From positions 1,169,322 to 1,233,321 of the forward strand of contig NZ_FMIY01000002.1 in assembly GCF_900095855.1 (NCBI RefSeq): a DNA stretch of 64,000 nucleotides. Reading direction: 5' to 3'. Shown in pieces: positions 9,911-62,157 of this stretch. Made by a program: the position numbers and the translations under genes. Origin of the DNA: Megasphaera coli. GTDB taxonomy: Bacteria > Bacillota > Negativicutes > Veillonellales > Megasphaeraceae. Position 1 is the first letter of the stretch. Each line of letters begins with the position of its first letter. The notes beneath the pieces are model-generated. The model was not told the origin of the DNA. It searched no databases and saw only the letters and a program-made list of their open reading frames with translations.

Positions 9911-9931
9911 CATATCCTCCTTTACACAAAC

Positions 9932-10016: not shown

Positions 10017-10076
10017 GTACAAAGAACTTGCTTTTGAACAGTTCGGCCTCACGGGACCGTCGTATATTCTTTCCCT

Positions 10077-10105
10077 ATTTTATATATGCGGCCCCGTAAA
10101 GTCAA
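10077..10105 (-). promoter_or_regulatory. Promoter of the pyrB operon
   Basis: On the minus strand, TTGACT and TAAAAT are separated by 17 bases. They lie about 60 bases ahead of the PyrR loop, giving a leader of about 160 nucleotides. Confidence 0.65.
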
Positions 10106-10140
10106 GAAATTTACGATACCGACCGCTACCTTATGAGTGC

Positions 10141-10614: not shown

Positions 10615-10639
10615 TGTTTCTCCTTATGTCCAAACCGCC

Positions 10640-11572: not shown

Positions 11573-11591
11573 TACTGCGTTTCTCCTAAAA

Positions 11592-12179: not shown

Positions 12180-12181
12180 GC

Positions 12182-12895: not shown

Positions 12896-12945
12896 ATCCT
12901 CACCTCTGCGCCGAAATAACAGGAATACCGGTACATATCTGTTTG

Positions 12946-12974
12946 ATTATCACACGCTTTAATTTTACTGTCAA
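12946..12974 (-). promoter_or_regulatory. Promoter of pyrF-pyrE
   Basis: On the minus strand, TTGACA and GATAAT are separated by 17 bases, about 50 bases upstream of the pyrF start. Confidence 0.7.
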
Positions 12975-12996
12975 ATATGCCTTCCCATGACCGGCC

Positions 12997-13470
12997 TTAG
13001 ATATGAATTTTACAGGTCCATTCCGTAACTGCCAGCTTAATCACACCCATAGTCGGAACTGCAGCTGCCGGGATTTCCCACTCGCTGCTGCCCGTATACG
13101 TGCGCATCAATTCCGTCAAGGCCTTTTTCTTCTCATCCCTGTCGGTCAGAACAACTATATCGCCTTTGCCCATGACGGAACGGAAACGAAATGAATGGGC
13201 ACAGGCTTTCTCGGCATAAACCGTTTCATGTGCCGTGTCCAGTTCAAAAGATGCCCGATTTTGCCGTTTCAGTAAATCATATTTTTTTCCTTGCGCCGCT
13301 CCGTGAAAATAAAAGACACCGAAATCTCCTTCCGCAACAAAGGCAAAATTCAGCGGCACAATGTAAGCCAGGCCGTCGTCGCCGATAAGCCCCAAACGGC
13401 AGCAATCACACTCACCGACTACCTTACGTATTTCTTCAACCCGTGTCTCTTCCCGATCCTTACGTCTCAT
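12997..13470 (-). CDS. Pyridoxamine 5'-phosphate oxidase-like flavoprotein (NimA type)
   Basis: A 157-residue split-barrel protein similar to the NimA/HugZ-like FMN-binding family. The arrangement is typical: an N-terminal CDCCRLGLIGDDGLAYIVPLNF strand region, then FYFHGAAQGKKYDLL, then SVMGKGDIVVL. Many relatives bind FMN or haem, and some reduce nitroimidazoles; the substrate here cannot be told. It stands alone on the minus strand upstream of the pyrF promoter. The 13471-13656 stretch beyond its start shows no gene. Confidence 0.75.
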   Translation of the reverse strand: MRRKDREETRVEEIRKVVGECDCCRLGLIGDDGLAYIVPLNFAFVAEGDFGVFYFHGAAQGKKYDLLKRQNRASFELDTAHETVYAEKACAHSFRFRSVMGKGDIVVLTDRDEKKKALTELMRTYTGSSEWEIPAAAVPTMGVIKLAVTEWTCKIHI

Positions 13471-48268: not shown

Positions 48269-48296
48269 GCGTACTTCTCCCCTTTCTGCCACTTCC

Positions 48297-49589
48297 TTAC
48301 AATCCGAAGCGGGCAAAGATTGTATCTACATGGCGCAACATTTTATTAACATCAAAGCACGCTTCAATGTCTTCATTCGTCATAACTGTTGCAATATCTT
48401 CATCTTTCTTCAGATTTTCCAGGAAATCTTCTCCTTCAAGCCACCGTTTCATGGCATTTCGCTGTACCCAGCGGTAAGCCTGTTCACGAACGGCGCCCTT
48501 TTCGACGAGCCTATTCAATAAGATGGGGCTGAAGATTAAGCCGCCTGTAAGCTCAAGGTCCTGCATCATTTTTTCGGGATACACGATAAGGCGATCGACG
48601 ACACGCGTAAAGGTCGTAAGCATATAATCGAGGGCAATCGTGCTGTCCGGCAAAATGATGCGCTCTACGGAAGAGTGGGAAATATCCCGTTCGTGCCAAA
48701 GTGCCACATCTTCCAATGCCGCCTGGGCATTGCCGCGAATGACGCGGGCCAGACCGCACATGCGTTCACACGTAACGGGATTTCGCTTATGAGGCATAAT
48801 AGACGAGCCCTTCTGTTTCGGGCTGAAATATTCTTCCGCTTCGCGCACTTCCGTCCGCTGCAAGTGTCTGATTTCCGTGGCAAATTTATCAATAGACGCG
48901 GCAATAACGGCCAAGGTCGTCATAAATTCGGCATGGCGATCACGCTGCAGTGTCTGCGTAGAAACGGGTGCCGGCAAAATACCGAGCTTTTCGCAGACAT
49001 ACCGTTCAATAAAAGGATCCACATCGGCGTACGTGCCGACAGCACCGGATATTTTCCCGACCGATATGACCTCTTTTGCCCGTCGCATGCGTTCAATATT
49101 GCGCTCCGTTTCGGCAAGCCACATGCACAGCTTCAGGCCGAAGGTCGTCGCCTCCGCATGAATGCCGTGAGTTCGACCGATGATCGGCGTGTACTTGAAC
49201 TCGACGGCGCGACGACGCAAAACCAGGCGAAATGCTTCCAAGTCCTTCAGCAGAATCTCCGACGCCTCTTTTAACATATATCCCAATGCCGTATCCTTCA
49301 CGTCTGTCGACGTGAGACCCAGGTGAACGTATTTCCCCGCTTCACCGATATTTTCGGAAAGGTTGGAAACAAAGGCGGCAATGTCATGGTGCGTTTCCGC
49401 TTCAATCGCATGAATGCGCTCTACGGAAAAGGACGCTTTTTCACGGATTTTCTCAGCCGCTTCCTTCGGAATATTTCCCAATTCCGCCTGTGCTTCACTG
49501 GCCAGGATTTCCACCTGCATCAGCGTATGCCATTCATTCTGTTCGCTCCAAATATGACCCATTTCTTCATTGGTATATCGTTCAATCAC
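48297..49589 (-). CDS. purB: Adenylosuccinate lyase
   Basis: A 430-residue fumarase-superfamily enzyme that acts twice in purine synthesis (SAICAR to AICAR, adenylosuccinate to AMP). The signature GSSIMPHKRNPVTCE is exact, and the catalytic histidine region GRTHGIHAEATTFG is present. The start codon is GTG, with AAGGAG eight bases upstream. A leader of more than 300 bases separates it from its likely promoter. The downstream desulfurase and TehA-like genes probably share the transcript. Confidence 0.95.
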   Translation of the reverse strand: MIERYTNEEMGHIWSEQNEWHTLMQVEILASEAQAELGNIPKEAAEKIREKASFSVERIHAIEAETHHDIAAFVSNLSENIGEAGKYVHLGLTSTDVKDTALGYMLKEASEILLKDLEAFRLVLRRRAVEFKYTPIIGRTHGIHAEATTFGLKLCMWLAETERNIERMRRAKEVISVGKISGAVGTYADVDPFIERYVCEKLGILPAPVSTQTLQRDRHAEFMTTLAVIAASIDKFATEIRHLQRTEVREAEEYFSPKQKGSSIMPHKRNPVTCERMCGLARVIRGNAQAALEDVALWHERDISHSSVERIILPDSTIALDYMLTTFTRVVDRLIVYPEKMMQDLELTGGLIFSPILLNRLVEKGAVREQAYRWVQRNAMKRWLEGEDFLENLKKDEDIATVMTNEDIEACFDVNKMLRHVDTIFARFGL

Positions 49590-49976
49590 GCTGATCTCTC
49601 CTTTTCACGAAGTGATAATAAATAAAATACACACGACTACTTGCAAAGCAGCCGTGTATGTACTCACTTAAAACATAGTGTTGTCATCTTCCGCCTGTTC
49701 CGGGATATCCTGCAAAACCTCCCGGCGTCAGCCGGTATCGGCCAATTTCTTCCTTTTCAATCAAATACCTTGCTCTTGAGCTGCAATTTATTCATCGTCT
49801 GCGGCAATTCACTCTTCACCGCCGTCAAAATTACCGTGCATCTGAATAAAAACTGCCGAACACGGCGGCTATTGTTTTTTATATAAAATTCTCCCTCCCC
49901 ACTCCTTGTACTCGTTGTTTTTTATTATCCTATATTTCCATATAATAGGCAATACAAAACACACGGCTGCAAACAC
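49590..49976 (-). promoter_or_regulatory. purB promoter and long leader
   Basis: On the minus strand TTGCCT and GATAAT, 17 bases apart (about 49923-49951), form a plausible promoter and leave a leader of about 320 nucleotides. Near its 3' end, ACACGGCT/AGTCGTGT (about 49631-49659) is a hairpin followed by TATTTTATTT, like a weak terminator. I recognise no riboswitch, and no open frame with a proper start is present. Confidence 0.4.
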
Positions 49977-50012
49977 AAAAGGGCATACATCCGCAATGTG
50001 ACGTATGCCCTT
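49977..50012 (-). terminator. Terminator of the selenium operon
   Basis: AAGGGCATAC/GTATGCCCTT stem followed on the minus strand by TTGTG, just after the selD stop. Confidence 0.8.
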
Positions 50013-50025
50013 GCCGCCGATATGA

Positions 50026-51060
50026 CTACTCGACTACGATAGCCGTATCTTCTTTTACCGTTACGTACCCGATTATTTGGCCGCACGGCAAATTGTCTTT
50101 CAATTCTTTTTCCAAGGCAACCGCATCTTTTTCACTGACTGCGATCATGAGTCCGCCGGAAGTCTGCGGGTCATAAAGAATATCCATAACCGCTTCACTT
50201 ATATCTCCGGCAATCTTTACGTGACCCTTCGTGTAATCGCGATTGCGATACGCGCCGGCCGGAATAAAGCCTTCCTCCGCCATACCGACGGCTTCCGGAT
50301 GGTAAGGCATGTTCTTCACGTCCAAGTGAAGTGTCATGCCGCTTCCCGATGCCATTTCATAGGCATGTCCCATGAGGCCGAAGCCCGTAATATCCGTACA
50401 ACTGTGAACGTCATACTTAATCATAATGTCGCGCCCGTATTTATTGAGCTCCGCCATTTCCTTGAAAAGTTGCCGTTCCAATGCCGGTTCTACGAGGCCA
50501 ACCTTTGCAGCCGTCGTCAAAATGCCGACGCCAAGCGGTTTGGTCAGGAGCAGAACGTCACCTTCGCGAGCCGACGAATTGCTGAGCAATCGGTCGGGAT
50601 GCATGAACCCCGTTACGGAAAGACCGTATTTCGGTTCTTTGTCTTCAATTGTATGCCCGCCCGTAATGAGTACGCCCGCTTCATAGGCCTTGCTGTAGCC
50701 GCCTTGAAGAATTTCCCGAACTGCGTCCTGCCCCATGGCGGAATTGATACACATGACATTCATGGCCAGTTTCGGATCCGCACCCATGGCGAATATATCG
50801 CTCAACGAGTTTGCTGCCGCAATTTGACCGAACATATACGGATCGTCCACAATAGGCGGAAAAAAGTCTACGGACTGAACAATTGCCAAGTCGTCGCGAA
50901 CTACATACACGGACGCATCATCACTCTTATCGTAGCCGACAATCAAACGGTCATCGTGATGGCGGGGAATCCCGTCCAACATTTGTGCCAGCACGCCGGC
51001 ACCGACCTTAGCGCCTCAGCCGGAGCAGGAAGCCATTGACGTTAATTTAATGTCGCTCAT
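50026..51060 (-). CDS. selD: Selenophosphate synthetase, itself a selenoprotein
   Basis: A 344-residue enzyme that makes selenophosphate from selenide and ATP. The catalytic segment reads MASCSG-U-GAKVGAG: the TGA at 51016-51018 stands where SelD has Cys or Sec, and K18 follows in the usual place. Without recoding the frame would begin only at 50994 and lack the active site. The ATG at 51060 is 14 bases after the DUF3343 stop. Later motifs such as DIFAMGADPKLAMNV and TDITGFGLMGHAYEM are normal. It is the last gene of yedE-yedF-DUF3343-selD. The organism must also have selA, selB and selC, none of which is in the window. Confidence 0.95.
50985..51018 (-). promoter_or_regulatory. UGA codon with candidate bacterial SECIS in selD
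   Basis: Just after the UGA, GTGCC/GGCAC can form a hairpin with the 8-base loop GGCGTGCT, beginning about 14 bases downstream. This fits the place of bacterial SECIS elements read by SelB. The fold was judged by eye. Confidence 0.65.
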
Positions 51061-51074
51061 TGTAATCACACCCT

Positions 51075-51317
51075 TTATGTCGAACTGTAAATCTGCTCAT
51101 AGCCGTTTTCCGTATGCCGGACAATTTGTTCGACTTCGCCACTTTCGTCACCGGAGTACGTGTAATCGTCAGGCGCCTGAAAACGGATGCCTGTGCCGCA
51201 AGACGAGCTCAGGTCCCGCGGCACGGGCATTAACTGAATGTCCGTTACCGACGGATGCGCTTCATTCTTAAAACGAATGGCCCCGAAATGGGAGTAAAAA
51301 GTAGCGATATATTGCAT
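51075..51317 (-). CDS. DUF3343 protein, putative Se/S carrier
   Basis: An 80-residue DUF3343 protein. The family shows a conserved Cys near the middle, here SSSCGTGIRF, and is repeatedly found with selD, yedF and NifS-like genes. It may carry selenium or sulfur as a persulfide-like adduct. It lies between yedF (20-base gap) and selD (14-base gap) in one transcript. The function rests on genomic association only. Confidence 0.8.
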   Translation of the reverse strand: MQYIATFYSHFGAIRFKNEAHPSVTDIQLMPVPRDLSSSCGTGIRFQAPDDYTYSGDESGEVEQIVRHTENGYEQIYSST

Positions 51318-51337
51318 GATTACACCTGTTTTCTCAC

Positions 51338-51541
51338 TTATTTTCTAGTAAACACCAACTTGAAATCTTCGCCTTCAGGCGCCGATTTTACTGTATACCC
51401 GTGGTTAGATACGTAGCGCGTAACATTTTCCATAGCCGTGTGTGTATCCACCATCATCTCATATTCCTGTTCCTGTGACTCCAAAGCCTTTTTCGCCATA
51501 ATAACAGGTTCGGGGCAAGAGTATCCGCGTGCATCTATCAT
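51338..51541 (-). CDS. yedF: TusA/YedF-family sulfur or selenium carrier
   Basis: A 67-residue TusA-fold protein. It has the single-cysteine motif DARGYSCPEPVIMAKKAL at its N-terminus. In TusA that cysteine carries persulfide sulfur; YedF members next to selD are predicted to carry selenium. This copy is a single TusA domain, without the extra C-terminal domain of longer YedF proteins; the next gene, DUF3343, may take that place. Confidence 0.85.
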   Translation of the reverse strand: MIDARGYSCPEPVIMAKKALESQEQEYEMMVDTHTAMENVTRYVSNHGYTVKSAPEGEDFKLVFTRK

Positions 51542-51555
51542 CGTGATCCCTCCTT

Positions 51556-52617
51556 CTATGCGCTCTGCTTACGTGTATTGACAACAGCAATAATAAAAGC
51601 AACGACAAAGCCGATGATAACGGCGACCTGACCGTTAAACGTCGGACCGGCGCCGGAAGCCGCCAAATTGAAATTATGAGCGAACGCCGCACCGACAATA
51701 AGTCCGAGAACGGTGACTGCCGAGTCGGAGTTTCCTTCACCGGTCAAAATAAGCTGACGCATCGGGCAACCGCCGAGAAGGATGCTGCAAAAACCTGCAA
51801 GAGCCATGCCGAGCAAATTCCACAAGCCGTCCGTATGGGCGATCGGTTGATTGGCAAAACCCGGATGGAAGTTACCGAAAGAAATATTTACAAGAAAAGC
51901 TGCAACCAATACAGCTACAAAGCCCAGTATCAATTTTGTTTCGTGGAATAAGATTATATCACGAATACCGCCTACCATGCAAAGACGGGTATATTGCGCC
52001 AAGCCGCCTACAACAAGGCCTGCAATCAAAGATACCGCCCAAGCCGCATGCATGGCACCGGGACCCTTTTCACTGAAGAAAATGAAAGCCGGGGCCGTAA
52101 CGACAAAAATCAGCAATACTACCTGTAATACGGGCATAACGGCCGTATCGAGTTTCGTCAATTTATACGTGCGCTTCAGAGAATAGCCGTTCTTTAAGAA
52201 AACCGTCCCGATACCGATACCGATAACAAAGCCGACAAATCCCAAGATTGCATTCCAGTCACCGCCGGCAAGGCGAAGAATCAAGCGGAAAGGGCAACCG
52301 AGAAACATCAGGCACCCGATCATGACCAGGACTCCCAAAATAAAACGAGTCATCGGTGAAGAGCCGCCTTTAGACACATGTTCACCGCGAATAACCGACA
52401 AAATAAATGCACCTAAAATAAGACCGATAATTTCGGGACGAATATATTGTACCGGTGCGGCACGGTGCAGCCCCAAACCGCCTACAGTATCCCGAATGAA
52501 GCAGGCAATACAAAAGCCCATGTTGGCGGGGTTGCCCGCAAGGACCAAAAAGCCCGCAATGGCGCCGATAATCAAACCGGCAATAATAATAGCGCGTTTC
52601 TCATGTGTAATTCCCAA
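51556..52617 (-). CDS. yedE: YedE-family membrane protein (selenium/sulfur transporter)
   Basis: A 353-residue membrane protein with about ten segments. It has two homologous halves with glycine- and cysteine-bearing motifs, NPANMGFCIACFIRD and the later TRLCMVGGIRD and LLGGCPMRQLI. YeeE/YedE proteins move thiosulfate-like or selenium compounds; members beside yedF and selD are predicted selenium transporters. I place the start at a TTG (52617) because AGGAGG lies seven bases upstream; the open frame continues to 52815 without a site. It leads the selenium operon. Confidence 0.87.
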   Translation of the reverse strand: MGITHEKRAIIIAGLIIGAIAGFLVLAGNPANMGFCIACFIRDTVGGLGLHRAAPVQYIRPEIIGLILGAFILSVIRGEHVSKGGSSPMTRFILGVLVMIGCLMFLGCPFRLILRLAGGDWNAILGFVGFVIGIGIGTVFLKNGYSLKRTYKLTKLDTAVMPVLQVVLLIFVVTAPAFIFFSEKGPGAMHAAWAVSLIAGLVVGGLAQYTRLCMVGGIRDIILFHETKLILGFVAVLVAAFLVNISFGNFHPGFANQPIAHTDGLWNLLGMALAGFCSILLGGCPMRQLILTGEGNSDSAVTVLGLIVGAAFAHNFNLAASGAGPTFNGQVAVIIGFVVAFIIAVVNTRKQSA

Positions 52618-52681
52618 GATAAATCCTCCTCTCGAAATCGCGGTCAGGTACCGTTCACACCATACCGTCATATAAAAATAT

Positions 52682-52710
52682 TTGAAAATCTCCGGCCTGT
52701 ACACTATACT
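52682..52710 (+). promoter_or_regulatory. Promoter of the NifS-like gene
   Basis: TTGAAA and TATACT are separated by 17 bases; the gene starts 39 bases further on, behind AGGAGAGAG. Confidence 0.65.
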
Positions 52711-52748
52711 GAACGGGTAAAGAGAAATCAACAAACAGGAGAGAGAAA

Positions 52749-53897
52749 ATGGAAAAACTTTATTTAGACAACGCGGCAACGACATTCCCAAAACCGGCAG
52801 TCGTTCCCGACGCAATGAGCGATTTCATCAAAAACCACGGGGTAAACATCAACCGCGGCTCGTACGCGCCTGCATATGACATGGAAGAACTCGTCTTCAA
52901 CACGCGCCGCCGCCTTGCCGACCTTTTCGGCGGGAAGGATGTGAAAAACGTAATTTTCACGCAAAATGTCACCATGAGCCTGAACATGGTTATCAAAGGA
53001 CTTTTCGGCAAGACGGACCACCTCCTCGTCTCCGCTATGGAGCACAATGCGGTTATGCGGCCTATTGTGCAGCTCAGTCATGACGGGCTGACCTTCGACA
53101 GGATTCCCTGTGCAGTCGACGGTACTCTTATTTCATCAGAAATGGAGCGGCTTGTCCGTCCTGAAACAAAAGCAATTATCATGACCCATGCGTCCAACGT
53201 CTGCGGTACGGTCATGCCGCTTGCTGAGGTCGGCGCTTTTTGTAAAAAGCACAACCTGCTCTTCATTGTCGACAGCGCCCAAACGGCCGGCACCTTGCCC
53301 ATCGACATGAAGACGATGCACATTGACGTCCTGTGCTTTACGGGCCACAAGGGACTTCTCGGTCCCCAGGGCATCGGCGGCTTCGTTCTCAGCGATGAAG
53401 TGGCCAAAGCCATGACGCCGCTCATTGCCGGCGGTACGGGCAGCCTTTCCCATTCGGAAGAAATGCCCGACTTTTTGCCGGATAAATTCGAATCGGGAAC
53501 AATGAATCTCCCCGGTATCGTCGGTCTCCACGCAGCCCTGAAGTTTCTTGACGAAACGGGCATGACCGCAATCCATCAGAAAGAAATGGCTCTTACGGAA
53601 CAATTTCTCGCCGGCATTGCTGCAGTCAAGCATATTCACCTCGCCGGAAAGCAAAGCCTTGCCGATCGCACAGCCGTCATTTCCATCGCCTCAACAACGA
53701 TGGACAACGCGAAACTCGCCGTTCGTTTGGAATCGGAATACGGCATCCTCACCCGTGTCGGGCTGCACTGCGCGCCGTCGGCACATAAAACGCTGCAAAC
53801 CTTCCCGAGCGGCACGGTGCGCTTTTCTTTCGGTTATTTTAACACGGAAAGTGAAATCGATACGGCCGTAAAAGCACTTCATGCCATTTGTGACTAA
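52749..53897 (+). CDS. NifS-like cysteine desulfurase / selenocysteine lyase
   Basis: A 382-residue class V PLP enzyme. [13 protein letters not shown] opens it, the PLP lysine is in [13 protein letters not shown] and the active cysteine in [13 protein letters not shown]. It diverges from the yedE-yedF-DUF3343-selD operon, so it is a strong candidate to release selenium for SelD. A general cysteine desulfurase role is possible too. It has a consensus promoter and its own terminator. The related gene at 47129 lies in a different context. Confidence 0.9.
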
Positions 53898-53910
53898 CAG
53901 TCATATAAAA

Positions 53911-53940
53911 GGCCTGTTCCTATGGAATAGGTCTTTTTTT
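53911..53940 (+). terminator. Terminator of the NifS-like gene
   Basis: GGCCTGTTCC/GGAATAGGTC stem (two G-U) followed by seven T; it reaches the stop codon of the convergent radical SAM gene. Confidence 0.85.
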
Positions 53941-54769
53941 ATTCTGCCCCCAACTTTCCGCATGCATCGGCACGGCAACGACAGCAATGAGTCATTTGCG
54001 GCATTACTTGGCCGATGAATTGACGAATACGGTGCAGTTCTTTATCCGTCGGCGCCGTTTTCCCCGCAAAAGGCGTATCATGAACGGGAATCATAGAGAT
54101 ACAGTTCATAATATCCGCTCCCCAGGCGGATGCTTTGGCGGCAATTTCCGGTATATGCTCCATATTGACACCCGGTATGACAACCGTATTGATTTTGACG
54201 ATCAGCTTATTTTCCTTCAAGCGCCTGATCGCTTCATCCTGACGATCCAGCAAAATTTCTGCGCCCTCTATACCCGTGTAAGTCCTGCCCTCATGACGCA
54301 CGAACGCGTATACGTCGGCACCTACTTCAGGACGAACGGCGTTGACCGTAACCGTAACATGGCTAATGCCGATTTCGACCAGCTCGTCCACGTATTCCGG
54401 CAAGGCCAGTCCGTTACTGGAAAGACACAGCATGACTCGCGGGAAGTGAGCACGCACCTTCTCAAAGGTGGAAATCGTCTTATCGGCATCACACATGGGA
54501 TCTCCCGGTCCGGCAATACCGACGACGGAAATATCCTGTCGCCTGGCGAAAAGTTTTTCCAGCATATCCACCGCCTCATCCGGCGTATACACGTGCTGTG
54601 TGACGCCGGGACGATTTTCATTGGCACAGTCATACATACGGTTGCAGAAGTTGCACTGAATATTGCAGTCAGGCGCGACGGGCAAATGAACGCGCCCCCA
54701 ATTGGCGGACGCCTCCTTATTAAAACAAGGATGATTATTTAAAAAACTTTGTCCCCTTATGTCCGTCAT
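53939..54769 (-). CDS. NifB-core-like radical SAM protein
   Basis: A 276-residue radical SAM enzyme. C35, C39 and C42 sit in PDCNIQCNFCNRMYDC, followed by ANENRPGV; this is close to the NifB signature CNxxCxYCNRxxDCxNExRPGV. GIAGPGDPMCD and a cysteine-rich tail (HCCRCRADACGKLG) also follow NifB. The C-terminal NifX-like domain of many NifB proteins is absent. NifB builds the carbide-bearing Fe-S cluster NifB-co, but no nitrogenase gene is here. It is the third gene of a unit with a membrane ferredoxin and a Tat-exported binding protein, and its product is unknown. Confidence 0.85.
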   Translation of the reverse strand: MTDIRGQSFLNNHPCFNKEASANWGRVHLPVAPDCNIQCNFCNRMYDCANENRPGVTQHVYTPDEAVDMLEKLFARRQDISVVGIAGPGDPMCDADKTISTFEKVRAHFPRVMLCLSSNGLALPEYVDELVEIGISHVTVTVNAVRPEVGADVYAFVRHEGRTYTGIEGAEILLDRQDEAIRRLKENKLIVKINTVVIPGVNMEHIPEIAAKASAWGADIMNCISMIPVHDTPFAGKTAPTDKELHRIRQFIGQVMPQMTHCCRCRADACGKLGAE

Positions 54770-55533
54770 TATTCCTTACCCTTTCTGCCGAACTTAATCG
54801 CGTTCTTATGGCATACGTTCAGGCAATCACCGCAGTTGGTACAGTTCATTTCGTCAGGACGCGTCCCCATTTCGCATGTACGCAGGCAAGCGTCGCAATT
54901 GTCGCAGGCGCTCGTCTTATATACGCGGAAAAAGGAAATTTTACGAATAAGTTCCATCGCGCCGCCGACAGGACAGATAAAACGGCACCAGAAGTTGGCA
55001 ATAATGAGAGAAGCCGCAATCAGCGACACGACCATTACGGTACGTACGGCCCAATACCAATCGGCAAAGCGAACGGACATGATGACCGCATTAAAATACT
55101 CATCACTCGTACGCATAGGAATCATGACCCGCGGGTTATCAAGACAGAAGTATACGCCCAGGCCGATAAGAATTGTAATGACCATGCCGATTTGAGCGAA
55201 CCTCATGCGCTTATCGCGTATCTTCAGCTTTGTAATCGCCAGCTTGCCGAGTATTTGATTGACAAGACCGCTCGGACAGAGCCAGCCGCAAAAGGCACGG
55301 CCCAAGAAGATGGCAAGGAGCGGTATAAAGAGCCAAAAACCGAAGAAATATGCCGTAATACGCCCCCAACAGGTGATGACGGGACATCGCTCACAATTGA
55401 CGAAGGGAACAATAAAGGGACATCGGAAAATCCCGTAGTATACCCATTTACCCATAACTGCAAGGAATACGAGCTGTACTAAGCGGCGCAGCTTGGGAAG
55501 ATAAAATGTATTTACTTTCTCTTTATTAGACAT
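54769..55533 (-). CDS. NapH-like membrane ferredoxin
   Basis: A 254-residue membrane protein with about five hydrophobic segments. The membrane cysteine motifs FCGWLCPSG and FWCRFICPVG are typical of the NapH/NosR/RdxA group. Two cytoplasmic 4Fe-4S sites follow: CDNCDACLRTC and CTNCGDCLNVCHK. A further cluster of cysteines near residues 38-55 (FRCPF...CERCPVITC) is unusual. Such proteins move electrons between quinol and periplasmic or cytoplasmic partners. It overlaps both neighbours, so the three are made as one unit. Confidence 0.88.
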   Translation of the reverse strand: MSNKEKVNTFYLPKLRRLVQLVFLAVMGKWVYYGIFRCPFIVPFVNCERCPVITCWGRITAYFFGFWLFIPLLAIFLGRAFCGWLCPSGLVNQILGKLAITKLKIRDKRMRFAQIGMVITILIGLGVYFCLDNPRVMIPMRTSDEYFNAVIMSVRFADWYWAVRTVMVVSLIAASLIIANFWCRFICPVGGAMELIRKISFFRVYKTSACDNCDACLRTCEMGTRPDEMNCTNCGDCLNVCHKNAIKFGRKGKE

Positions 55534-56392
55534 CTTTTACGCCGAACCTTTCTATTAAATCCAAGCCCCGCGGTGAATGAACGGAGGTAAACCCGTTGTG
55601 CTCAAACGCGGCCTGGCCTTCATCGGAACGAATAAAATCAACGAAGTCATCTGCCAACGCCCTGTCTTGAACATATTTCATCACATTAATAGTAAACGTT
55701 AACGGTGCCGGCGGAATAAATTTAGGATCGATCGGCATGTATTCGATTTTATCTTTAAACCGATCGTGCGTAGTCAACCGTTTTTCAATAATCGATACAT
55801 CGCCCTTTCCCTCAATAAGGCCGCACATCATTTTAATGACGCACGTTTCGTTGACGATCATATTTTGCATAAATGCGTCCGTGAGCCCCGATTTCTTCAT
55901 AATTCCCTGAACGGAAGCGCTGCCCGGAGGAGAAGCCCCTAAGGGAAGCATAACGCGTACTCCCGGTTCGGCCATATCCTGTAAATCACGAATACCCGCA
56001 GGGTTTCCCTTCGGCGTAACAATGACGTAATCCGTAAAACAGAGAGGTTTAAAAGCCAAGCTTACACCTTTCTTGCGCATATTCTTAGCCAGCTCCAGCC
56101 CGCGGGCACCGAAAATTTCCGTCTGTCCTTTTAGCGATAAAAGTGCTTTACCCAAGGCACCGGCAAACGCACCCGTATATTGAATATTATGACCCGTTTT
56201 CTTTTCGTAAATTTCGTTAGCCTCAATAAAAGCCTCCGATAAACCTCCGCAGGACCAAACTTCCAGAGAGTCTGATTTAAAGGGCGTGTATCCGGCGGAA
56301 ATCAGCTTCGGCACGGCTGAAGCTGCAGCGGCGGATAGAGCGGCACCTTTAATAAATTGCCGTCTGGAAATCCGATCTTTCAAAAAATCCAT
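55526..56392 (-). CDS. Tat-exported ModA-like substrate-binding protein
   Basis: A binding protein of about 288 residues with a twin-arginine signal (SRRQFIKG, then an Ala-rich core, cleavage likely near ISAG). The mature part is a type II periplasmic fold like molybdate-binding ModA, with LEVWSCGGLSEAF at the start and FVDFIRSDEGQAAFEHNGF near the end. No ABC permease or ATPase lies beside it. Tat export suggests folding or cofactor loading before export. I chose the ATG at 56392, eight bases after GAGGAG. It is the first gene of the unit. Confidence 0.85.
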   Translation of the reverse strand: MDFLKDRISRRQFIKGAALSAAAASAVPKLISAGYTPFKSDSLEVWSCGGLSEAFIEANEIYEKKTGHNIQYTGAFAGALGKALLSLKGQTEIFGARGLELAKNMRKKGVSLAFKPLCFTDYVIVTPKGNPAGIRDLQDMAEPGVRVMLPLGASPPGSASVQGIMKKSGLTDAFMQNMIVNETCVIKMMCGLIEGKGDVSIIEKRLTTHDRFKDKIEYMPIDPKFIPPAPLTFTINVMKYVQDRALADDFVDFIRSDEGQAAFEHNGFTSVHSPRGLDLIERFGVKDV

Positions 56393-56442
56393 ATTTGTTA
56401 CTCCTCTCACATATTCACAGGGTCAAGAAACCCGGTGTTTTC

Positions 56443-56464
56443 ATTATCTTCTATTATCATTATT
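56443..56464 (-). promoter_or_regulatory. GATAAT hexamer array (Fur-like)
   Basis: On the minus strand AATAAT-GATAAT (56453-56464) and GATAAT (56443-56448) lie 50-70 bases ahead of the binding-protein start. Adjacent GATAAT-type hexamers are the building blocks of Fur sites, so iron control is a fair hypothesis. The right half of a classical box is poor. Confidence 0.4.
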
Positions 56465-56479
56465 ATGTACATAATATAT

Positions 56480-56518
56480 AAAAAATATCTATAATTCCGG
56501 TTGTGGAATTATAGATAT
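56480..56518 (-). terminator. Terminator of the FAD-dependent dehydrogenase gene
   Basis: A 14-bp stem ATATCTATAATTCC/GGAATTATAGATAT followed on the minus strand by TTTTTATAT. Confidence 0.8.
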
Positions 56519-56556
56519 CAATAATTTTCTTTCACTTCTTAAATTTTGCGGGAATT

Positions 56557-57945
56557 TCAACATTCTTCCCGAGCCGTAATGACCTGTCCCACCGTTACTC
56601 CCGCAGCCGACGCTTGTACAAGACCGCGCGTAATACCGGCACCGTCACCTATAGCAAAGAAGTTGTGCACCTTCGTCTCCAGATTTGCACTAAGTTCAAG
56701 GCGATTTGAATAGAACTTAACCTCCACACCGTAGAGCAGTGTATGCCGCGAATTGGCCCCGGGCGCAACCTCGTCGAGAGCGGCGAGCATTTCCTTAATA
56801 TCCTGCAAATGGCGATAGGGCAGGACAAGCGACAGATCGCCGGGCGTTGCCGTCGGCATAGTCGGCCGCACGAGGCCGCGCATAATTCGCTCTTCCGTCG
56901 AGCGGCGCCCGTCAAGCAGATCGCCCAAGCGCTGTACAATAACGCCGCCGCCGAGTATATTGGCCAAATTGGCAATATACTTGCCGTATTTAATAGGCTC
57001 CCGAAAAGGTTCCGTAAACTTTTTCGACACGAGGACGGCAAAATTCGTGTTCCCGCTCTTTTTATGGGCATAGCTGTGGCCATTGACTGTTAACAGTCCA
57101 TCGTTGTTTTCCGTTACGACAAAGCCGTTGGGATTCATACAAAAGGTTCGTACGCGGTCATCAAAGGAGCGACTGAAGTAGACGAGCTTTGATTCATAAA
57201 CGACATCCGTAATAGACTCCAGCACTTCCGCCGGCATTTCTACGCGAACGCCGATGTCGACGGCATTACTCGTAAATTCCAACCCAAGTTGCGACACTTC
57301 GTTAACAAACCATTCCGCCCCTTCTCTCCCGGGCGCGCCGACAAGATAACGGCAGCCGTAAAACATATCCTTAATGATGACACCCTTGACGACGCCGCTT
57401 TCCGCTATAATCCGGTCAACAGCCGTATCCGCCATAATGTCCGCCTTATCTGCCAAAAAATCGCGCATATTCGTCAAAATTTCACCGTTCACGTCGGTTC
57501 CTAAATGGCGAATGCGCGCCGGTATGAGCCGCAGGTCTGCCGCGGCAGCCTTGCGTTTCAAGTCACGAATAAGGTCGGCATGCTCATCGCCGTACACTTT
57601 TCGCCCGGCTCCGCCGAAATGACAGTACGTTTTATCGACATATCGAATCTTTTCGGCCAACTCTTCTTTGGACAAATAATCATCCAGGTTACCGCCGAAT
57701 TCCGTCGTAAGTGTCAGCTTTCCGTCGCTGAACGCGCCGGCACCGCCCCAACCGCAGACGACGTTGCGCACCTTATCTTTAGGCAAGGCATTCTTATTTC
57801 GACTCGTCGCAATGCGCTCCCGTATATCCTGCCCCTTTTCGACCATCAGAATCTTCAGCCCCTTGCCGGCCAACTCGAGAGCGGTGAAAATACCGGCCGG
57901 ACCGGCGCCGATAATAATAACATCGTATGTTTTTACGGCTTTCAT
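56557..57945 (-). CDS. FAD-dependent dehydrogenase (COG2509 family)
   Basis: A 462-residue FAD protein. The nucleotide-binding motif IIIGAGPAGIFTALELAGKG opens it, and NVVCGWGGAGAFSDGKLTL, SHPGREG-like LVGAPGREGAEW and FFAIGDGAGITRGLVQA follow. The family is widespread in anaerobes and has no assigned reaction. It appears monocistronic, divergent from a small membrane gene. The length is normal. Confidence 0.88.
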   Translation of the reverse strand: MKAVKTYDVIIIGAGPAGIFTALELAGKGLKILMVEKGQDIRERIATSRNKNALPKDKVRNVVCGWGGAGAFSDGKLTLTTEFGGNLDDYLSKEELAEKIRYVDKTYCHFGGAGRKVYGDEHADLIRDLKRKAAAADLRLIPARIRHLGTDVNGEILTNMRDFLADKADIMADTAVDRIIAESGVVKGVIIKDMFYGCRYLVGAPGREGAEWFVNEVSQLGLEFTSNAVDIGVRVEMPAEVLESITDVVYESKLVYFSRSFDDRVRTFCMNPNGFVVTENNDGLLTVNGHSYAHKKSGNTNFAVLVSKKFTEPFREPIKYGKYIANLANILGGGVIVQRLGDLLDGRRSTEERIMRGLVRPTMPTATPGDLSLVLPYRHLQDIKEMLAALDEVAPGANSRHTLLYGVEVKFYSNRLELSANLETKVHNFFAIGDGAGITRGLVQASAAGVTVGQVITAREEC

Positions 57946-58025
57946 ATTTTTGCCTCCTCCGCCGTATGCTACGGCAAAATATGGTATAATAACTGCAATA
58001 TCATGCTTTTTGAAAGGAGTTTCTC

Positions 58026-58460
58026 ATGCCCGGAACACGCCGCCGCCAACCGTATGAAAAAGTAAATTTTCAGCAGGAAGTGTACTTGCAGGTGAGTATT
58101 TTCTTGTGGACGCTCTTCCTTATGATTATACTACTGGCCGCTTTCTTTTTCCAAATGCCCGTCGCCGCATCAGCCGTTATCACCGCCGTTTTACTGTCCT
58201 CTACACTGGTTTTACGCATAAAGTTCAAAGATTTTTACAAATTCCGCGACCGCGGCCAGCGGACCTGGTGTGCCACATGCGCCCTCTACGCAAGTCTCTG
58301 TCTGACGGGCGGCTGCATTTATGTATATAATCAGTCCGCCGAAATGACGTGGGATTACGCCCTCGTCTTTCTCTTCGGTTTTCTTTTTTTCACATATATG
58401 GCCTATAGAAGCCTCAGTCCGACAATGGTTGTCGGCAACAAACGAACGAGTATCCGCTAA
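58026..58460 (+). CDS. Small uncharacterised membrane protein
   Basis: A 144-residue protein with about four membrane segments (residues 22-42, 45-62, 84-102 and 112-130) and a basic N-terminus (MPGTRRRQPYEK). I do not recognise the family. An extended -10 (TGGTATAAT, 57982-57990) and AAAGGAG precede it. The second IS copy starts 14 bases after its stop, so its normal terminator may have been displaced. Confidence 0.7.
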   Translation: MPGTRRRQPYEKVNFQQEVYLQVSIFLWTLFLMIILLAAFFFQMPVAASAVITAVLLSSTLVLRIKFKDFYKFRDRGQRTWCATCALYASLCLTGGCIYVYNQSAEMTWDYALVFLFGFLFFTYMAYRSLSPTMVVGNKRTSIR

Positions 58461-58474
58461 GGTGTTACGGCAAC

Positions 58475-59229
58475 AAATCATAACCACCAGTAGAACTGGT
58501 GGTTTGCTCTGACCCTATAAGGGTCTATCTCTTGTGGTAGCACCAAATGGTGCACTGAATAAAATCCGGCAATCACATCACTGTTACTGGCAGCCCCCTA
58601 CTCGGGGGCTCTTTCTTTGCCTACTTATGTACTCTTCTTACCCGTAAACGGGTCTACATACTCTTTGAAATCCAACGTGTCCTGTGCTATATCTTCCTGC
58701 AGTTGTTGTCGGATATAGGTTTTTATCGCACCTTCGTATTTTCCTACCGTGTCCACATAGTAACCCCGACACCAAAAATGTCTATTGCCATACTTATATT
58801 TTAAGTTTGCATGTTTATCAAATATCATTAAACTGCTCTTACTTTTTAGATATCCCATGAAACCGAATACACTTAGATGTGGTGGTATTGTCACCAGCAT
58901 GTGGATATGATCCGGACAACATTCTGCTTCCAGTATTTCTACGTGCTTCCGGGTGCACAACTCCCGCAATATTTTTCCTATATCCACCTTTATGGTCCCA
59001 TATATAGCTTGTCTTCTATATTTGGGCGCAAATACGATATGGTATTTGCATCTCCATTTACTGTGTGATAAGCTTTGTACGTCATTCATTGACAGTGAAC
59101 CTCCTATCCGTTATGTGATGTGGTTGCCAGACCATCATCATTCTAACACAGGAGGTTCCTTCTTTTTCTATAAGTATTTTTTTGCTCCCCCAGTAAACTG
59201 GGGGTTTAGTCATGCCTGTTCGGCGCCAA
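58475..59229 (-). mobile_element. IS200-like element, copy 2
   Basis: A 755-base element with the same sequence as copy 1 apart from one extra T in the T-run near 59180. It has the same subterminal hairpins, the same single tnpA and the same orientation. It sits directly behind the terminator of the six-tRNA cluster. Its structured segment is at 58504-58620. Confidence 0.9.
58625..59089 (-). CDS. tnpA: IS200/IS605 family Y1 transposase TnpA, copy 2
   Basis: The 154-residue protein is identical to that at 23295-23759, with HUH motif H61-I-H63 and probable catalytic Y125. The reading frame is intact, so the copy may be active. Confidence 0.95.
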   Translation of the reverse strand: MNDVQSLSHSKWRCKYHIVFAPKYRRQAIYGTIKVDIGKILRELCTRKHVEILEAECCPDHIHMLVTIPPHLSVFGFMGYLKSKSSLMIFDKHANLKYKYGNRHFWCRGYYVDTVGKYEGAIKTYIRQQLQEDIAQDTLDFKEYVDPFTGKKST

Positions 59230-59230
59230 C

Positions 59231-59270
59231 AAAAAGAACTATCTACCGGAAAGGATAGATAGTTCTTTTT
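59231..59270 (-). terminator. Terminator of the six-tRNA cluster
   Basis: A 15-bp stem AAAAAGAACTATCTA/TAGATAGTTCTTTTT; on the minus strand its TTTTTGTT runs directly into IS copy 2. Confidence 0.9.
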
Positions 59271-59277
59271 GCGTATT

Positions 59278-59353
<76 letters not shown>

Positions 59354-59358
59354 GAGTG

Positions 59359-59433
59359 TGGTGACCCCTACGGGATTCGAACCCATGTTATCGCCGTGAA
59401 AGGGCGGTGTCTTAACCGCTTGACCAAGGGGCC
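59359..59433 (-). tRNA. tRNA-Glu (TTC)
   Basis: A 75-base tRNA with CCA; the anticodon loop CTTTCAC gives TTC. The acceptor GGCCCCT/AGGGGTC contains one G-U pair. Confidence 0.95.
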
Positions 59434-59445
59434 ATGAAAGATTTG

Positions 59446-59521
59446 TGGTGATCCACCCGAGATTCGAACTCGGGACACCCTGATTAAAAGTCAGGTGCTC
59501 TGCCGACTGAGCTAGTGGATC
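59446..59521 (-). tRNA. tRNA-Lys (TTT), copy 2
   Basis: A 76-base tRNA with CCA and anticodon TTT; nearly identical to the copy at 41558. Confidence 0.96.
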
Positions 59522-59528
59522 ATAAATT

Positions 59529-59602
59529 TGGCAGGGGTAGCTGGATTCGAACCAACGATGACGGAGTCAGAGTCCGTTGCCTTACCGCTTGGCGATACCC
59601 CT
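59529..59602 (-). tRNA. tRNA-Gln (CTG)
   Basis: A 74-base tRNA with CCA. The anticodon stem ACGGA/TCCGT is fully paired and loop CTCTGAC gives CTG. Confidence 0.95.
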
Positions 59603-59605
59603 ATG

Positions 59606-59681
59606 TGGCTCCTCAAGTAGGACTCGAACCTACGACAAATCGGTTAACAGCCGATTGCTCTACCAACTGAGCTATTGAGGA
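59606..59681 (-). tRNA. tRNA-Asn (GTT)
   Basis: A 76-base tRNA with CCA; stem ATCGG/CCGAT and loop CTGTTAA give GTT. Confidence 0.96.
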
Positions 59682-59708
59682 ATACTTGCTTTCCTCTAAA
59701 GAGAAAAA

Positions 59709-59783
59709 TGGAGCGGAAAACGAGGCTCGAACTCGCGACCCCCACCTTGGCAAGGTGGTGCTCTACCACTGAGCTACTTCCGC
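59709..59783 (-). tRNA. tRNA-Gly (GCC)
   Basis: A 75-base tRNA with CCA; stem CCACC/GGTGG and loop TTGCCAA give GCC. It is the first gene of the cluster. Confidence 0.95.
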
Positions 59784-59795
59784 ATGACAACGGTT

Positions 59796-59825
59796 ATTAT
59801 ACTATAGTATTTTAAGCCTTGTCAA
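59796..59825 (-). promoter_or_regulatory. Promoter of the six-tRNA cluster
   Basis: On the minus strand TTGACA and TATAAT, both perfect consensus, are 18 bases apart. The promoter overlaps the 3' end of the tmk-like gene. Confidence 0.85.
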
Positions 59826-60495
59826 TATACCTTTCTCTAATAAGCCGGTATACTTCTTCATGAATGGCCTCGGCAGGACGCAGAGTACCGTCGTAAACAC
59901 AATTCACTACATGCCAGCCGTATTTCTTTACGAGTTCTCCATAGGCTTTATGACATTTATCAAGAAAGCTCCGGTTGTTTTCATGAATATCCCCCGTTTG
60001 TCCGCCTGTCTTACCTGCTCTTGCCGCCATGAGCCGCGCCGACACATCCTGCGGCACGTCGAGAAGCACCACGCCGTCCGGCTCGGGCAAGCCCAGTTTA
60101 TGAAACTCGAAATCCGTCAGCCAGTCGAGGAACGCTTCCCGCTCCGGTGCAGCATCAATTTTAATCATTTGGTAAAGCATGTTACTCGTCGTGTAGCGGT
60201 CGGCCAGGACGATACCGCCGCTTTTAAAAAAAGCCTTCCACTTGCGTTCATACGAAGCGACCCGGTCCACCGCATAAAAGGCCGAAGCCGCATAGGGATT
60301 CACCGCATCGGCATGTGTACCGAAGTCGCCGCGCAAATACATTTTCACAAGGGCACTCGACTCGCTGTCATAATCGGGAAAGTTTACAGCCATGACGGGA
60401 AACCCGTCTTTTTCCAAATGCTTGTGCAATAATTCAGTCTGCGTCGCCTTGCCGCTGCCGTCGCCGCCTTCAATAATAATCAGTTTTCCTGCCAT
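59812..60495 (-). CDS. tmk: Thymidylate kinase
   Basis: A 227-residue dTMP kinase that makes dTDP for DNA synthesis. The P-loop is EGGDGSGKATQT, with Ala where most family members have Thr or Ser after the lysine. The DR(Y/S) motif is ADRYTTSNMLYQ, and the lid region follows near residue 145. The gene starts one base after the decarboxylase stop; the same decarboxylase-tmk order is known in Bacillus (yaaO-tmk). Confidence 0.9.
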   Translation of the reverse strand: MAGKLIIIEGGDGSGKATQTELLHKHLEKDGFPVMAVNFPDYDSESSALVKMYLRGDFGTHADAVNPYAASAFYAVDRVASYERKWKAFFKSGGIVLADRYTTSNMLYQMIKIDAAPEREAFLDWLTDFEFHKLGLPEPDGVVLLDVPQDVSARLMAARAGKTGGQTGDIHENNRSFLDKCHKAYGELVKKYGWHVVNCVYDGTLRPAEAIHEEVYRLIRERYIDKA

Positions 60496-60496
60496 C

Positions 60497-61966
60497 TTAC
60501 TTCTCCCGTCTCTTTATTACACGCAAAGCCTTCCCCGTCTTATCAGCGCAGCCGTGCGCTCCATAGCCTTCACTTGTCTTTTTGCGAATATACACGGCAC
60601 AGGCTTCCGTCACTTCTTCACCCGGCGCCAATACAGGTATGCCCGGCGGGTAAAAGAGGACCGGCTCCGCCGCTATCCTGCCTATAGCCTGCTCCAACGG
60701 CACGAGCTGCGTCTCGCCTTGCCAAGCCTGCCGCGGCGATAAACGTACGACAGGTTCCGGCAGCGGTATTTCCGCAACGGCGCCGTTTTGCTCAGCTTCA
60801 TTGCAAATTGTACTTATCTTGAGGCAAGCTTCATATAAGGCAGCTACACTTTCCACAGTGTCACCCAGAGTAATCAGTACCAGGACATGATTGCCTGCCG
60901 TCAGTTCCGCTTCTATCTTCTCCTGCCGCAAGAGCCGTTCCGCCTGCGCTCCGGTCAAGCCCAAGCCGGAAAAGTCAATACAGATTTTCGTTTCATCGAA
61001 CCCGCCGAGACCGCCATATTTCGCTAAAATATCCTTACCGAAAGAAACTATACCCGGGATCTCGTTTAATTTACGGCGCAGCGCGGCTGCCAACGTCAAT
61101 GTCCGTTCAAGCAGGCCGTGCCCTTCCAGCGCCATTTGCTGCCGCGCACTGTCCAAAGAGGCGAGAAACCAATAATGAGGGCTCGTTGACTGCACAAAAG
61201 ACATTGCCTCAACCACCTTGTCGGTCAGCGCAAAGCCGCGGCGGCAATGAAGCATGGATGTCTGTGTCAAAGAACCTGCCAATTTGTGCGTACTTTGCGC
61301 CACGCAATCGGCGCCGCACGACAAAGCGGACGACGGCAAACCGGGATGCATGCCGAAGTGAGCTCCGTGCGCCTCATCGACAAGAACCACGAGTCCCTGC
61401 TCATGTGCATAATCCGCAAGAACCGTTAAGTCCACACACACGCCGTCGTATGTAGGATACGTAAACAGGACGGCCCTGGCTGCCGGATGTGCCGCAATAA
61501 CCCGCTTCAATTCCGCCAAGTCCGGCCCCAGAGAAATCTGCTCGTCAAAGGCAAAACGACTCTTCATATAAACGGGCTTCGCACCGCTCAAAATAAGACC
61601 GTTCATGACGCTCTTATGAACCTCTCTGGAGATAATAAGTTCATCGCCTTCGCCGCAAACAGCCAAAATCATGGCTTCAATACAAGCGGTTGTTCCGTTG
61701 ACGGAAAAACAGGTTCTTCCGGCACCATACAAGTCGGCAGCAAGTTCCATAGCTTCACCTAAAGGGCCGGTGGGATCGAATAAATCATCAAGCGCATACA
61801 TGAGCCCCAAATCCCGCGTCAATGCCGAACCGAAGAGTTTTTTTTGGTAAGCGGAAATTCCCTGTCCCAGCTTATGACCCGGCGTATGATAGGCGAAAAA
61901 ATTTTTTTTGCAATATTCTTCCAACGCCGTCACAAAAGGCGTATTTTGCTGCTTCTCTTTATCCAT
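60497..61966 (-). CDS. Orn/Lys/Arg decarboxylase (SpeA/YaaO type)
   Basis: A 489-residue PLP decarboxylase of the short Firmicute type. Motifs are FAYHTPGHKLGQG near the start, FSVNGTTACIEAMIL, VDEAHGAHFG and the PLP lysine in QSTHKLAGSLTQTSML. These enzymes make agmatine, cadaverine or putrescine; the preferred amino acid cannot be read from the sequence. With speE at 41865 it suggests polyamine synthesis. It is the first gene of a two-gene unit with tmk. Confidence 0.9.
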   Translation of the reverse strand: MDKEKQQNTPFVTALEEYCKKNFFAYHTPGHKLGQGISAYQKKLFGSALTRDLGLMYALDDLFDPTGPLGEAMELAADLYGAGRTCFSVNGTTACIEAMILAVCGEGDELIISREVHKSVMNGLILSGAKPVYMKSRFAFDEQISLGPDLAELKRVIAAHPAARAVLFTYPTYDGVCVDLTVLADYAHEQGLVVLVDEAHGAHFGMHPGLPSSALSCGADCVAQSTHKLAGSLTQTSMLHCRRGFALTDKVVEAMSFVQSTSPHYWFLASLDSARQQMALEGHGLLERTLTLAAALRRKLNEIPGIVSFGKDILAKYGGLGGFDETKICIDFSGLGLTGAQAERLLRQEKIEAELTAGNHVLVLITLGDTVESVAALYEACLKISTICNEAEQNGAVAEIPLPEPVVRLSPRQAWQGETQLVPLEQAIGRIAAEPVLFYPPGIPVLAPGEEVTEACAVYIRKKTSEGYGAHGCADKTGKALRVIKRREK

Positions 61967-62157
61967 GGACTACCTCGATACAGGCTCATCGCTCTCAAAC
62001 GGAGGAATTTCAAATTTATGTTATTGTATCATACGAGTCACCACCGCGGTAGATAAAACATTCCAGATAAAGACATTCCGTCTCCTCATCTGTCCATTTA
62101 CAAACTCCTTGTTTTTCCATAAAATATAAGTACAGTTTTTTCTAAGGAGTGATATAT

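Follow-up and report, generated by a model that had tools for sequence, protein, structure and literature searches.

What does a NifB protein do in a bacterium in which no nitrogenase is recognised? NifB and its product are called unique to diazotrophic organisms in the abstract of PMC5601070; methanogens are a known exception (PMC12176620). The question is raised here by a 64,000-nucleotide stretch of the genome of Megasphaera coli (Negativicutes, Megasphaeraceae; contig NZ_FMIY01000002.1, positions 1,169,322 to 1,233,321), which we call the window. On its minus strand lie, in the order of reading, genes for a binding protein with a predicted twin-arginine translocation (Tat) signal, a NapH-like membrane iron-sulfur protein and a NifB-type radical S-adenosylmethionine (SAM) protein (Table 1). 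The host genome (G000) measures 1.71 Mb and is 89.9% complete. An initial annotation, made from the letters of the window, had read the three genes as one unit in which a redox route across the membrane feeds a NifB-like reaction for an enzyme other than nitrogenase. Below, genomes and loci that need to be told apart carry G and L numbers. The comparisons suggest that the exported pair depends on NifB activity. A redox module that depends on NifB and acts outside the cytoplasmic membrane, with the cluster held in the exported protein, comes close to an even chance as a reading of the unit, though it falls somewhat short of one.

A conserved three-gene unit

Profile searches concur with the names that the initial annotation gave to the three proteins, and the coordinates bear out both overlaps it described, one of 8 bases between the binding-protein and NapH-like genes (55526-55533) and one of a single base between the NapH-like and radical SAM genes (54769). 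Since terminator-like hairpins flank the unit and a weak promoter match lies upstream of it, the three genes are probably read as one transcript. Besides its ATG start, the binding-protein gene has a further in-frame GTG at 56410.

The alignment pattern of the NapH-like protein was scanned against 84,980 species, each represented by one genome, and yielded 22 loci, of which the 18 strong ones (at least 48% identity) were kept; four weak loci (L052-L055; NapH identity 23-27%, without a binding-protein or NifB match) were dropped, and near-copies such as L036 were left out of the family alignments. The titles of the strong loci name Megasphaera, Anaeroglobus, Veillonella, Sporomusa, Anaerospora, Campylobacter concisus, Desulfatitalea, a Syntrophobacterales and a Bacillota bacterium. 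The binding protein adjoins the NapH-like gene in 18/18 (the copy in L049 is incomplete at its 5' end), and 15 loci have a full radical SAM gene; in L043 it is truncated, in L047 the contig ends within it, and L044 has none. In a sample of 395 Desulfobacterota genomes, 16 were positive for the pair (NapH family at E 1e-30); 15 of these loci were fetched, the sixteenth being L049 of the first scan, and they have the binding protein adjacent in 15/15 and a NifB-type gene adjacent in 10/15. Binding-protein and NapH-like genes are thus neighbours in all 33 fetched loci (18 + 15), with a NifB gene beside them in 25, a truncated or cut-off one in two (L043, L047) and none in six. The three-gene unit recurs in Negativicutes, Campylobacter concisus and Desulfobacterota. 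This conservation across loci led us to reject a chance association or a relic, and the view of the trio as a single unit, put forward from the window, is upheld by its recurrence in other genomes. No description of the unit was found in the searches made, which covered open-licence papers.

A radical SAM protein of the NifB family

By sequence, the third protein is a NifB. It matches the Radical_SAM family, and the solved structures nearest to it are the NifBs 6y1x, 7bi7, 7jma and 7jmb, the first of which is titled 'Radical SAM domain protein' and is identified as NifB in a passage of PMC9692996. Against the nifB model TIGR01290 (441 positions) it aligns to positions 9-278 and scores 335.5 bits, below the equivalog cut-off of 343.65. 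We regard this shortfall as a limit of the model, because other NifB-type genes of similar length fall short as well; 39 of 110 NifB-positive genomes have no TIGR01290 match above the cut-off. The radical SAM cysteines C35, C39 and C42 are present in 23/23 members of the unit NifB, as are the K1 ligands C15, H28 and C115 and the K2 ligands C262 and C265 (numbering mapped from ligand descriptions in PMC9692996 and PMC7145814); the gating cysteine C48 is present in 21/23.

The initial annotation had also called for a NifB tree, and the one we built places the radical SAM gene inside the NifB family. It is a quick, unrooted tree of 93 sequences from which three rows were removed, and its rows labelled NIF were picked by profile match, those of loci L123-L152 without a check for nif neighbours. 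Twenty-one unit NifBs share a clade with 23 other Desulfobacterota NifBs (Shimodaira-Hasegawa-like approximate likelihood-ratio support 99), 22 of the latter having frames of at least 343 amino acids (aa), and two unit NifBs (L106, L108) branch elsewhere within the tree. Topology tests rejected a single clade of all 23 (approximately unbiased p 0.003) and did not reject one of the 21 (0.56), so that this system probably recruited a NifB on two or more occasions. The unit of Campylobacter concisus (L037 7088-9580, L050 6677-9166) shares about 70% identity with the window's, and in the tree its NifB is nested together with the Megasphaera micronuciformis one; a transfer of the unit between these distant bacteria is therefore likely.

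The NifB core and the lack of a NifX-like domain, to which the initial annotation had drawn attention together, are both seen, but the second is no special mark. Stand-alone NifBs make up 24% of bacterial NifBs in one survey (as given in a passage of PMC5715403), and those whose surroundings were read stand mostly near nif-type genes, so that the missing domain was rejected as the sign of a new family. The stand-alone NifBs of diazotrophs share domain, ligands and tree with the unit NifB and differ in company: they mostly stand with nif-type genes, whereas the unit NifB stands with an exported protein and a NapH-like one.

No general nitrogenase-like client

The initial annotation saw no nitrogenase, and wider searches agree. 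A genome search of the 89.9% complete G000 gave no match to PF00148 and one weak partial match to PF00142 (31.9 bits), and inspection by eye of the window neighbourhood 48000-62000, with profile scans of nine proteins, showed no nif genes. Nitrogenase-type genes are present in 0/34 pair loci (window included) and in 35/43 nifB loci, stand-alone and longer forms together. Among relatives, 21 of the 26 genomes above the PF00148 cut-off have no NifB match. None of six unit-positive genomes of genus g5 has a PF00148 protein; five unit-positive g1 genomes (G004, G007, G011, G012, G014) do have them. Because PF00148 proteins mostly occur without NifB and are absent from the six g5 genomes, a nitrogenase-like protein is unlikely as the general client, and a NifDK-like client was rejected.

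A NifB tied to a use other than nitrogen fixation has a parallel among nitrogenase-like enzymes such as the methylthio-alkane reductase MarBHDK, for which a passage of PMC12552129 describes a NifB-like maturase beside a non-nitrogen-fixing client with an [Fe8S9C] cluster. That client is of NifDK type with a NifH partner, whereas no such client was found in the 34 pair loci.

Some nitrogenase-like genes were met on the way. PF00148 matches occur in 16/16 g1/g2 relatives other than G000, with or without NifB. Locus L195 (1-12000; G014, Anaeroglobus-like) has a NifH-like and two NifE/D-like proteins among genes for HypF, HypD and an AIRS protein, and may hold a nitrogenase-like system tied to hydrogenase maturation. 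In L174, L179, L180 and L182, NifBs of a divergent branch stand with nitrogenase-like proteins and, by eye, ABC (ATP-binding cassette) transporter genes; these are possible nitrogenase-like salvage systems in Desulfobacterota.

Probable dependence of the exported pair on NifB

The loci in which the pair has no NifB beside it show a pattern of natural complementation. There are six, from five Desulfobacterota (G712, G847, G793, G798, G572) and one member of the Bacillota (G062, locus L044), and in 6/6 of these genomes a full-length nifB or a NifN-B fusion lies at another place. With the query proteins of these distant loci named by NCBIfam, the distant nifB adjoins nitrogenase-type genes in five of the six (NifH only in G062); in G572 it is the NifN-B fusion, around which 3.8 kb was read. 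Likewise, Sporomusa silvacetica, whose unit NifB copy is truncated, has three full-length nifBs. A further nifB is present in 7/7 genomes whose unit copy is missing or truncated versus 5/23 with an intact one (G011, G635, G677, G759 and G853; p 0.0004, ignoring relatedness), the 23 being 12 relatives and 11 Desulfobacterota, with the remaining Sporomusa, Anaerospora and Campylobacter not among them. Across the Desulfobacterota sample, a NifB-type match (E 1e-40) occurs in 16/16 pair-positive genomes versus 94/379 others (Fisher p 6e-10). The genome profile searches score only some candidates per genome, and genome counts may be too low. The simplest reading seems to be that the pair of binding protein and NapH-like protein needs NifB activity, whichever NifB provides it, and these genome patterns support such a dependence well.

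Since the dedicated NifB can be replaced by a nitrogenase-type nifB elsewhere, a NifB that feeds the exported protein fits better than the reverse. The membrane redox route of the initial annotation thus stands in part: its components fit a transmembrane redox link, but its direction, with the route feeding NifB, is probably reversed. The same swap pattern bears on the idea that the radical SAM protein has ceased to make NifB-co, the NifB product, and runs a new reaction with a selenium-containing or methylated product. That no pair locus places it near nitrogenase genes, and that it has selenium neighbours (see below), would suit such a change. However, a changed product would not easily allow the gene to be missing from six genomes and truncated in a seventh that all have another nifB, and both the retained cluster ligands (23/23) and gate (21/23) and the repeated recruitment on the tree speak against it; we consider a new reaction improbable.

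The exported protein and its membrane partner

The binding protein belongs to the SBP_bac_11 family. It has the ModA/PEB3 fold, with 4kd5 as the best match and 2h5y and 2hxw also among the top matches, and it does not reach the ModA equivalog TIGR01256 (24.8 bits versus a cut-off of 62.5). Its predicted model has a mean predicted local distance difference test (pLDDT) score of 73.7. Its Tat signal scores 20.0 bits with TIGR01409, above the cut-off of 16.7, and 22.0 with PF10518, just below the cut-off of 22.7. The Tat motif and three cysteines (C48, C118, C184) are each kept in 30/30 members, versus 0/19 ordinary ModA-like proteins at the same positions. When a 398-genome sample of the host's own phylum was searched with the binding protein, a strong match came from G000 only; a further 37 scored E 4e-35 to 3e-21, and the 19 of these that were checked are without the three cysteines. 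In the alignment to 4kd5 the cysteines lie beside the first anion-binding loop, the hinge and the second-lobe anion contact, sites that we take to be the anion-binding positions of ModA.

No ABC permease was seen by eye in the window neighbourhood 48000-62000, where nine proteins were also scanned with profiles, so the earlier description of a Tat-exported ModA-like protein without a permease holds for this region. The protein thus shares its fold with ModA and PEB3 and differs from them by the Tat motif, the three invariant cysteines and the lack of a permease beside it in the window. Elsewhere, an ABC ATPase was recognised by motif within 5 kb of the pair in 4/34 pair loci (L048, L051, L102, L108); in L048 and L051 (both Sporomusa) an NMT1-type ABC transporter with its own, different binding protein adjoins the unit, and in L102 the neighbouring transporter likewise brings a separate binding protein, of the PBP_like_2 type.

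The NapH-like protein is of the Fer4_5 family, with NapH/MauN as its best match, below the cut-off (61.2 versus 213.05 bits). Sixteen cysteine positions are each kept in 31/31 members. They include the CxxxCP pairs C82/C86 and C183/C187 and the ferredoxin cysteines C210-C220 and C231-C241; two CxxxCP motifs with two cysteine sets for [4Fe-4S] clusters presumably define NapH. An added motif of four cysteines (C38, C47, C50, C55) follows the first hydrophobic segment, also in 31/31 members, and by the positive-inside rule it probably faces outside. No nap genes for NapG or NapA partners were recognised around the unit.

A selenium neighbourhood

A selenium island lies directly beside the unit in the window, with genes for a selenocysteine lyase-like cysteine desulfurase, YedE, a DUF3343 protein and SelD; neither this link nor the three invariant cysteines was part of the initial annotation. 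The YedE/SelD/DUF3343 island shares the locus with the unit in most Negativicutes found. Among the 18 first-scan loci, the desulfurase is present in eight, all Negativicutes, and YedE lies within the locus in 12. Among 60 relatives, YedE scored above its cut-off in 12/12 unit-positive versus 8/48 unit-negative genomes (Fisher p 9e-8), and SelD likewise in the 12 unit-positive ones; within genus g5 (14 genomes), unit and YedE are both present in six and both absent from eight. The ten genomes behind first-scan loci (L041 being already among the 12) have YedE in nine; the tenth, L047, has its unit on a 3-kb contig. In Desulfobacterota, YedE was found in 13/16 pair-positive genomes versus 165/379 others (p 0.004). 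YedE is a proposed selenium transporter in PMC5322559, the main text of which has no occurrence of NifB, radical or ferredoxin. This linkage, with SelD, YedF and DCCP as further neighbours, suggests a selenium role for the unit, the weakest step of our argument.

That the unit is universal among YedE genomes was rejected, as 8/20 YedE relatives are without it and 3/5 such fetched loci have the YedE-desulfurase pair alone. G029 and G015 have weak YedE-like matches, with neither the unit nor an island protein seen around them. In L200 (G008; 8634-13107, compared with window 51556-57945) the YedE, desulfurase and FAD (flavin adenine dinucleotide)-protein genes are neighbours and the unit is missing; the FAD gene stands about 700 bases from the desulfurase, in the opposite orientation to the window, which indicates a rearrangement of the region around the unit. 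The SelD of the window is itself a selenoprotein, the TGA in its CSGUG motif being read as selenocysteine. SelD mostly has one in-frame TGA in genomes of the same genus and has none in the g5 genomes.

The DCCP model NF040772 has matches near the unit in L096, L101, L103 and L106, and a PF06050 fragment lies in L049; YedF accompanies DCCP in L103 and L106. These neighbours could mean that the NifB product goes to a cytoplasmic enzyme whose gene lies elsewhere, such as DCCP, and that binding protein and NapH-like protein sense or supply its substrate. DCCP, a double-cubane-cluster reductase, presumably holds an [Fe8S9] cluster, which would favour the idea; to our knowledge, that cluster lacks a carbide, and no need of it for NifB is known. 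The unit NifB moreover has the exported pair as its constant partners, and none of the listed Negativicutes and Campylobacter loci showed a DCCP when the first 60-70 residues of their proteins were judged by eye. We give little credence to a cytoplasmic client of this kind.

A proposed mechanism

If the exported protein is the recipient, the unit may work as follows. The NifB-type protein would make an [Fe8S9C]-type, NifB-co-like cluster in the cytoplasm, as its ligands and place in the tree suggest. The cluster would be loaded into the ModA-fold partner, probably at the three invariant cysteines, and the loaded, folded protein would be exported by Tat. The NapH-like protein would pass electrons from the cytoplasmic or quinol side outward through its iron-sulfur clusters and reduce the loaded protein. 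The reaction would probably serve to acquire or reduce a selenium compound, which YedE and SelD would then handle; this is the least certain step. The full proposal, a NifB-made carbide cluster outside the membrane, carried by Tat in a three-cysteine cleft of a NapH-driven reductase whose substrate is selenium or else a related oxyanion or organic compound, is tentative, and we would sooner doubt it than rely on it.

Cysteine pockets for such clusters have precedents. NifB-co is held by two cysteines in NifEN (a passage of PMC13128457), and the [8Fe-9S-C] clusters of the methyl-coenzyme M reductase (MCR) activation complex have as ligands two cysteines, two histidines or a cysteine and a histidine (an excerpt of PMC12176620). 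The same excerpt reports NifB as essential in methanogens even without nitrogenase genes, and its authors deem NifB probably involved in the clusters of the MCR complex. With its McrC and Mmp7 proteins, this complex resembles the proposed module in having [8Fe-9S-C] clusters outside the nitrogenase family and in an electron-transfer path, and differs in being archaeal, driven by ATP and acting on MCR, whereas the unit combines a predicted Tat-exported ModA-fold protein with a NapH-like one.

The conserved cysteines also allow another arrangement, in which the exported protein is a thiol-pocket binder of a soft species (selenite, another selenium compound or a metal), the NapH-like protein reduces that species for import, and the NifB cluster goes to the four-cysteine site of the NapH-like protein or to a membrane complex. 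The invariance of this added motif, the alignment of the three cysteines beside what we take to be ModA-like anion-binding positions, the YedE linkage and the ABC transporters beside the unit in L048, L051 and L102 would all agree with it. On the other side, a four-cysteine motif normally holds an ordinary [4Fe-4S] cluster, and export by Tat rather than by the general secretory pathway suits a protein folded around a cofactor, although it does not prove one. We judge the thiol pocket rather unlikely.

Several observations weigh against a cluster-bearing exported protein with a selenium role. In the AlphaFold models, the NapH-like protein is poor (mean pLDDT 49.5), and the binding protein has pLDDT below 50 for residues 1-48, hence uncertain near C48, so that the model does not establish the geometry of the three cysteines. 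No invariant histidine was seen in the binding-protein alignment, and no NifX-like carrier in the operon. The chance expectation for the five Desulfobacterota without an adjacent NifB, 0.25^5 = 0.0009, falls back to a background of 0.25^3 = 0.015 if they are counted as the about three lineages that they look like, and the statistics ignore relatedness. As to selenium, YedE is missing from 3/16 pair-positive Desulfobacterota and lies inside the fetched locus in only two of the 16 (L049, L098); it is not within the fetched Campylobacter concisus locus, and L196, L197 and L200 have the YedE-desulfurase pair but no unit. Finally, the ABC transporters beside the unit in L048, L051 and L102 could point to a substrate other than selenium.

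Features of the window and of other loci

An Rfam scan gave 11 tRNAs and one PyrR element. In 4/15 Desulfobacterota loci, an outer-membrane porin-like gene stands beside the pair or unit; such neighbours are expected for a system whose substrate comes from outside.

Table 1. Position of the unit, its signals and its neighbours in the window, and of selected neighbours of the unit or pair in other loci
Feature	Location	Strand	Basis
Tat-type ModA/PEB3-fold binding protein gene, 288 aa	55526..56392	minus	ATG start; PF13531 E 2e-40
NapH/MauN-like membrane iron-sulfur protein gene, 254 aa	54769..55533	minus	PF12801; TIGR02163 E 1e-16, below cut-off
NifB-type radical SAM protein gene, 276 aa, without NifX-like domain	53939..54769	minus	TIGR01290 E 4e-100
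Candidate promoter of the three-gene unit, TGTACA-17-GATAAT	56443..56471	minus	Consensus scan only; weak
Terminator-like hairpin, sets the unit apart from the upstream FAD-protein gene	56484..56519	minus	15-pair stem and T tail
Terminator-like hairpin, in the gap between the radical SAM gene and the convergent cysteine desulfurase gene	53907..53937	plus	14-pair stem and T tail
Cysteine desulfurase/selenocysteine-lyase-like protein	52749..53897	plus	TIGR01977 456 bits, above cut-off; SclA model 438 bits, below cut-off
YedE, putative selenium transporter	51556..52815 (profile match ~51586-52590)	minus	TIGR04112 514 bits, cut-off 200
DUF3343 Se/S carrier-like protein	51075..51317	minus	PF11823 E 6e-11
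SelD, start codon chosen by eye	50026..51060	minus	TIGR00476; one in-frame TGA inside match
NMT1-type ABC transporter beside the unit	L048 4175-6885; L051 4217-7026		
ABC transporter with PBP_like_2 binding protein beside the unit	L102 4135-7592		
DCCP genes	L096 4406-5698; L101 4423-5697; L103 2998-4278; L106 2023-3174		NF040772
Alginate_exp genes	L104 3849-5351; L105 6380-7948; L106 10917-12482; L108 3996-5474		PF13372

Implications

A dedicated NifB that belongs with an exported partner, in bacteria devoid of nitrogenase, would mean that the uses of this very complex iron-sulfur cluster go beyond those known. If the proposal is true, NifB would have one more class of client next to the MCR activation complex and nitrogenase-like enzymes, present in non-diazotrophic bacteria and built on a fold unrelated to nitrogenase. 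The exported protein could also offer a small host for the cluster, of the kind wanted by nitrogenase engineers, and the unit is a candidate for an undescribed step in bacterial selenium use.

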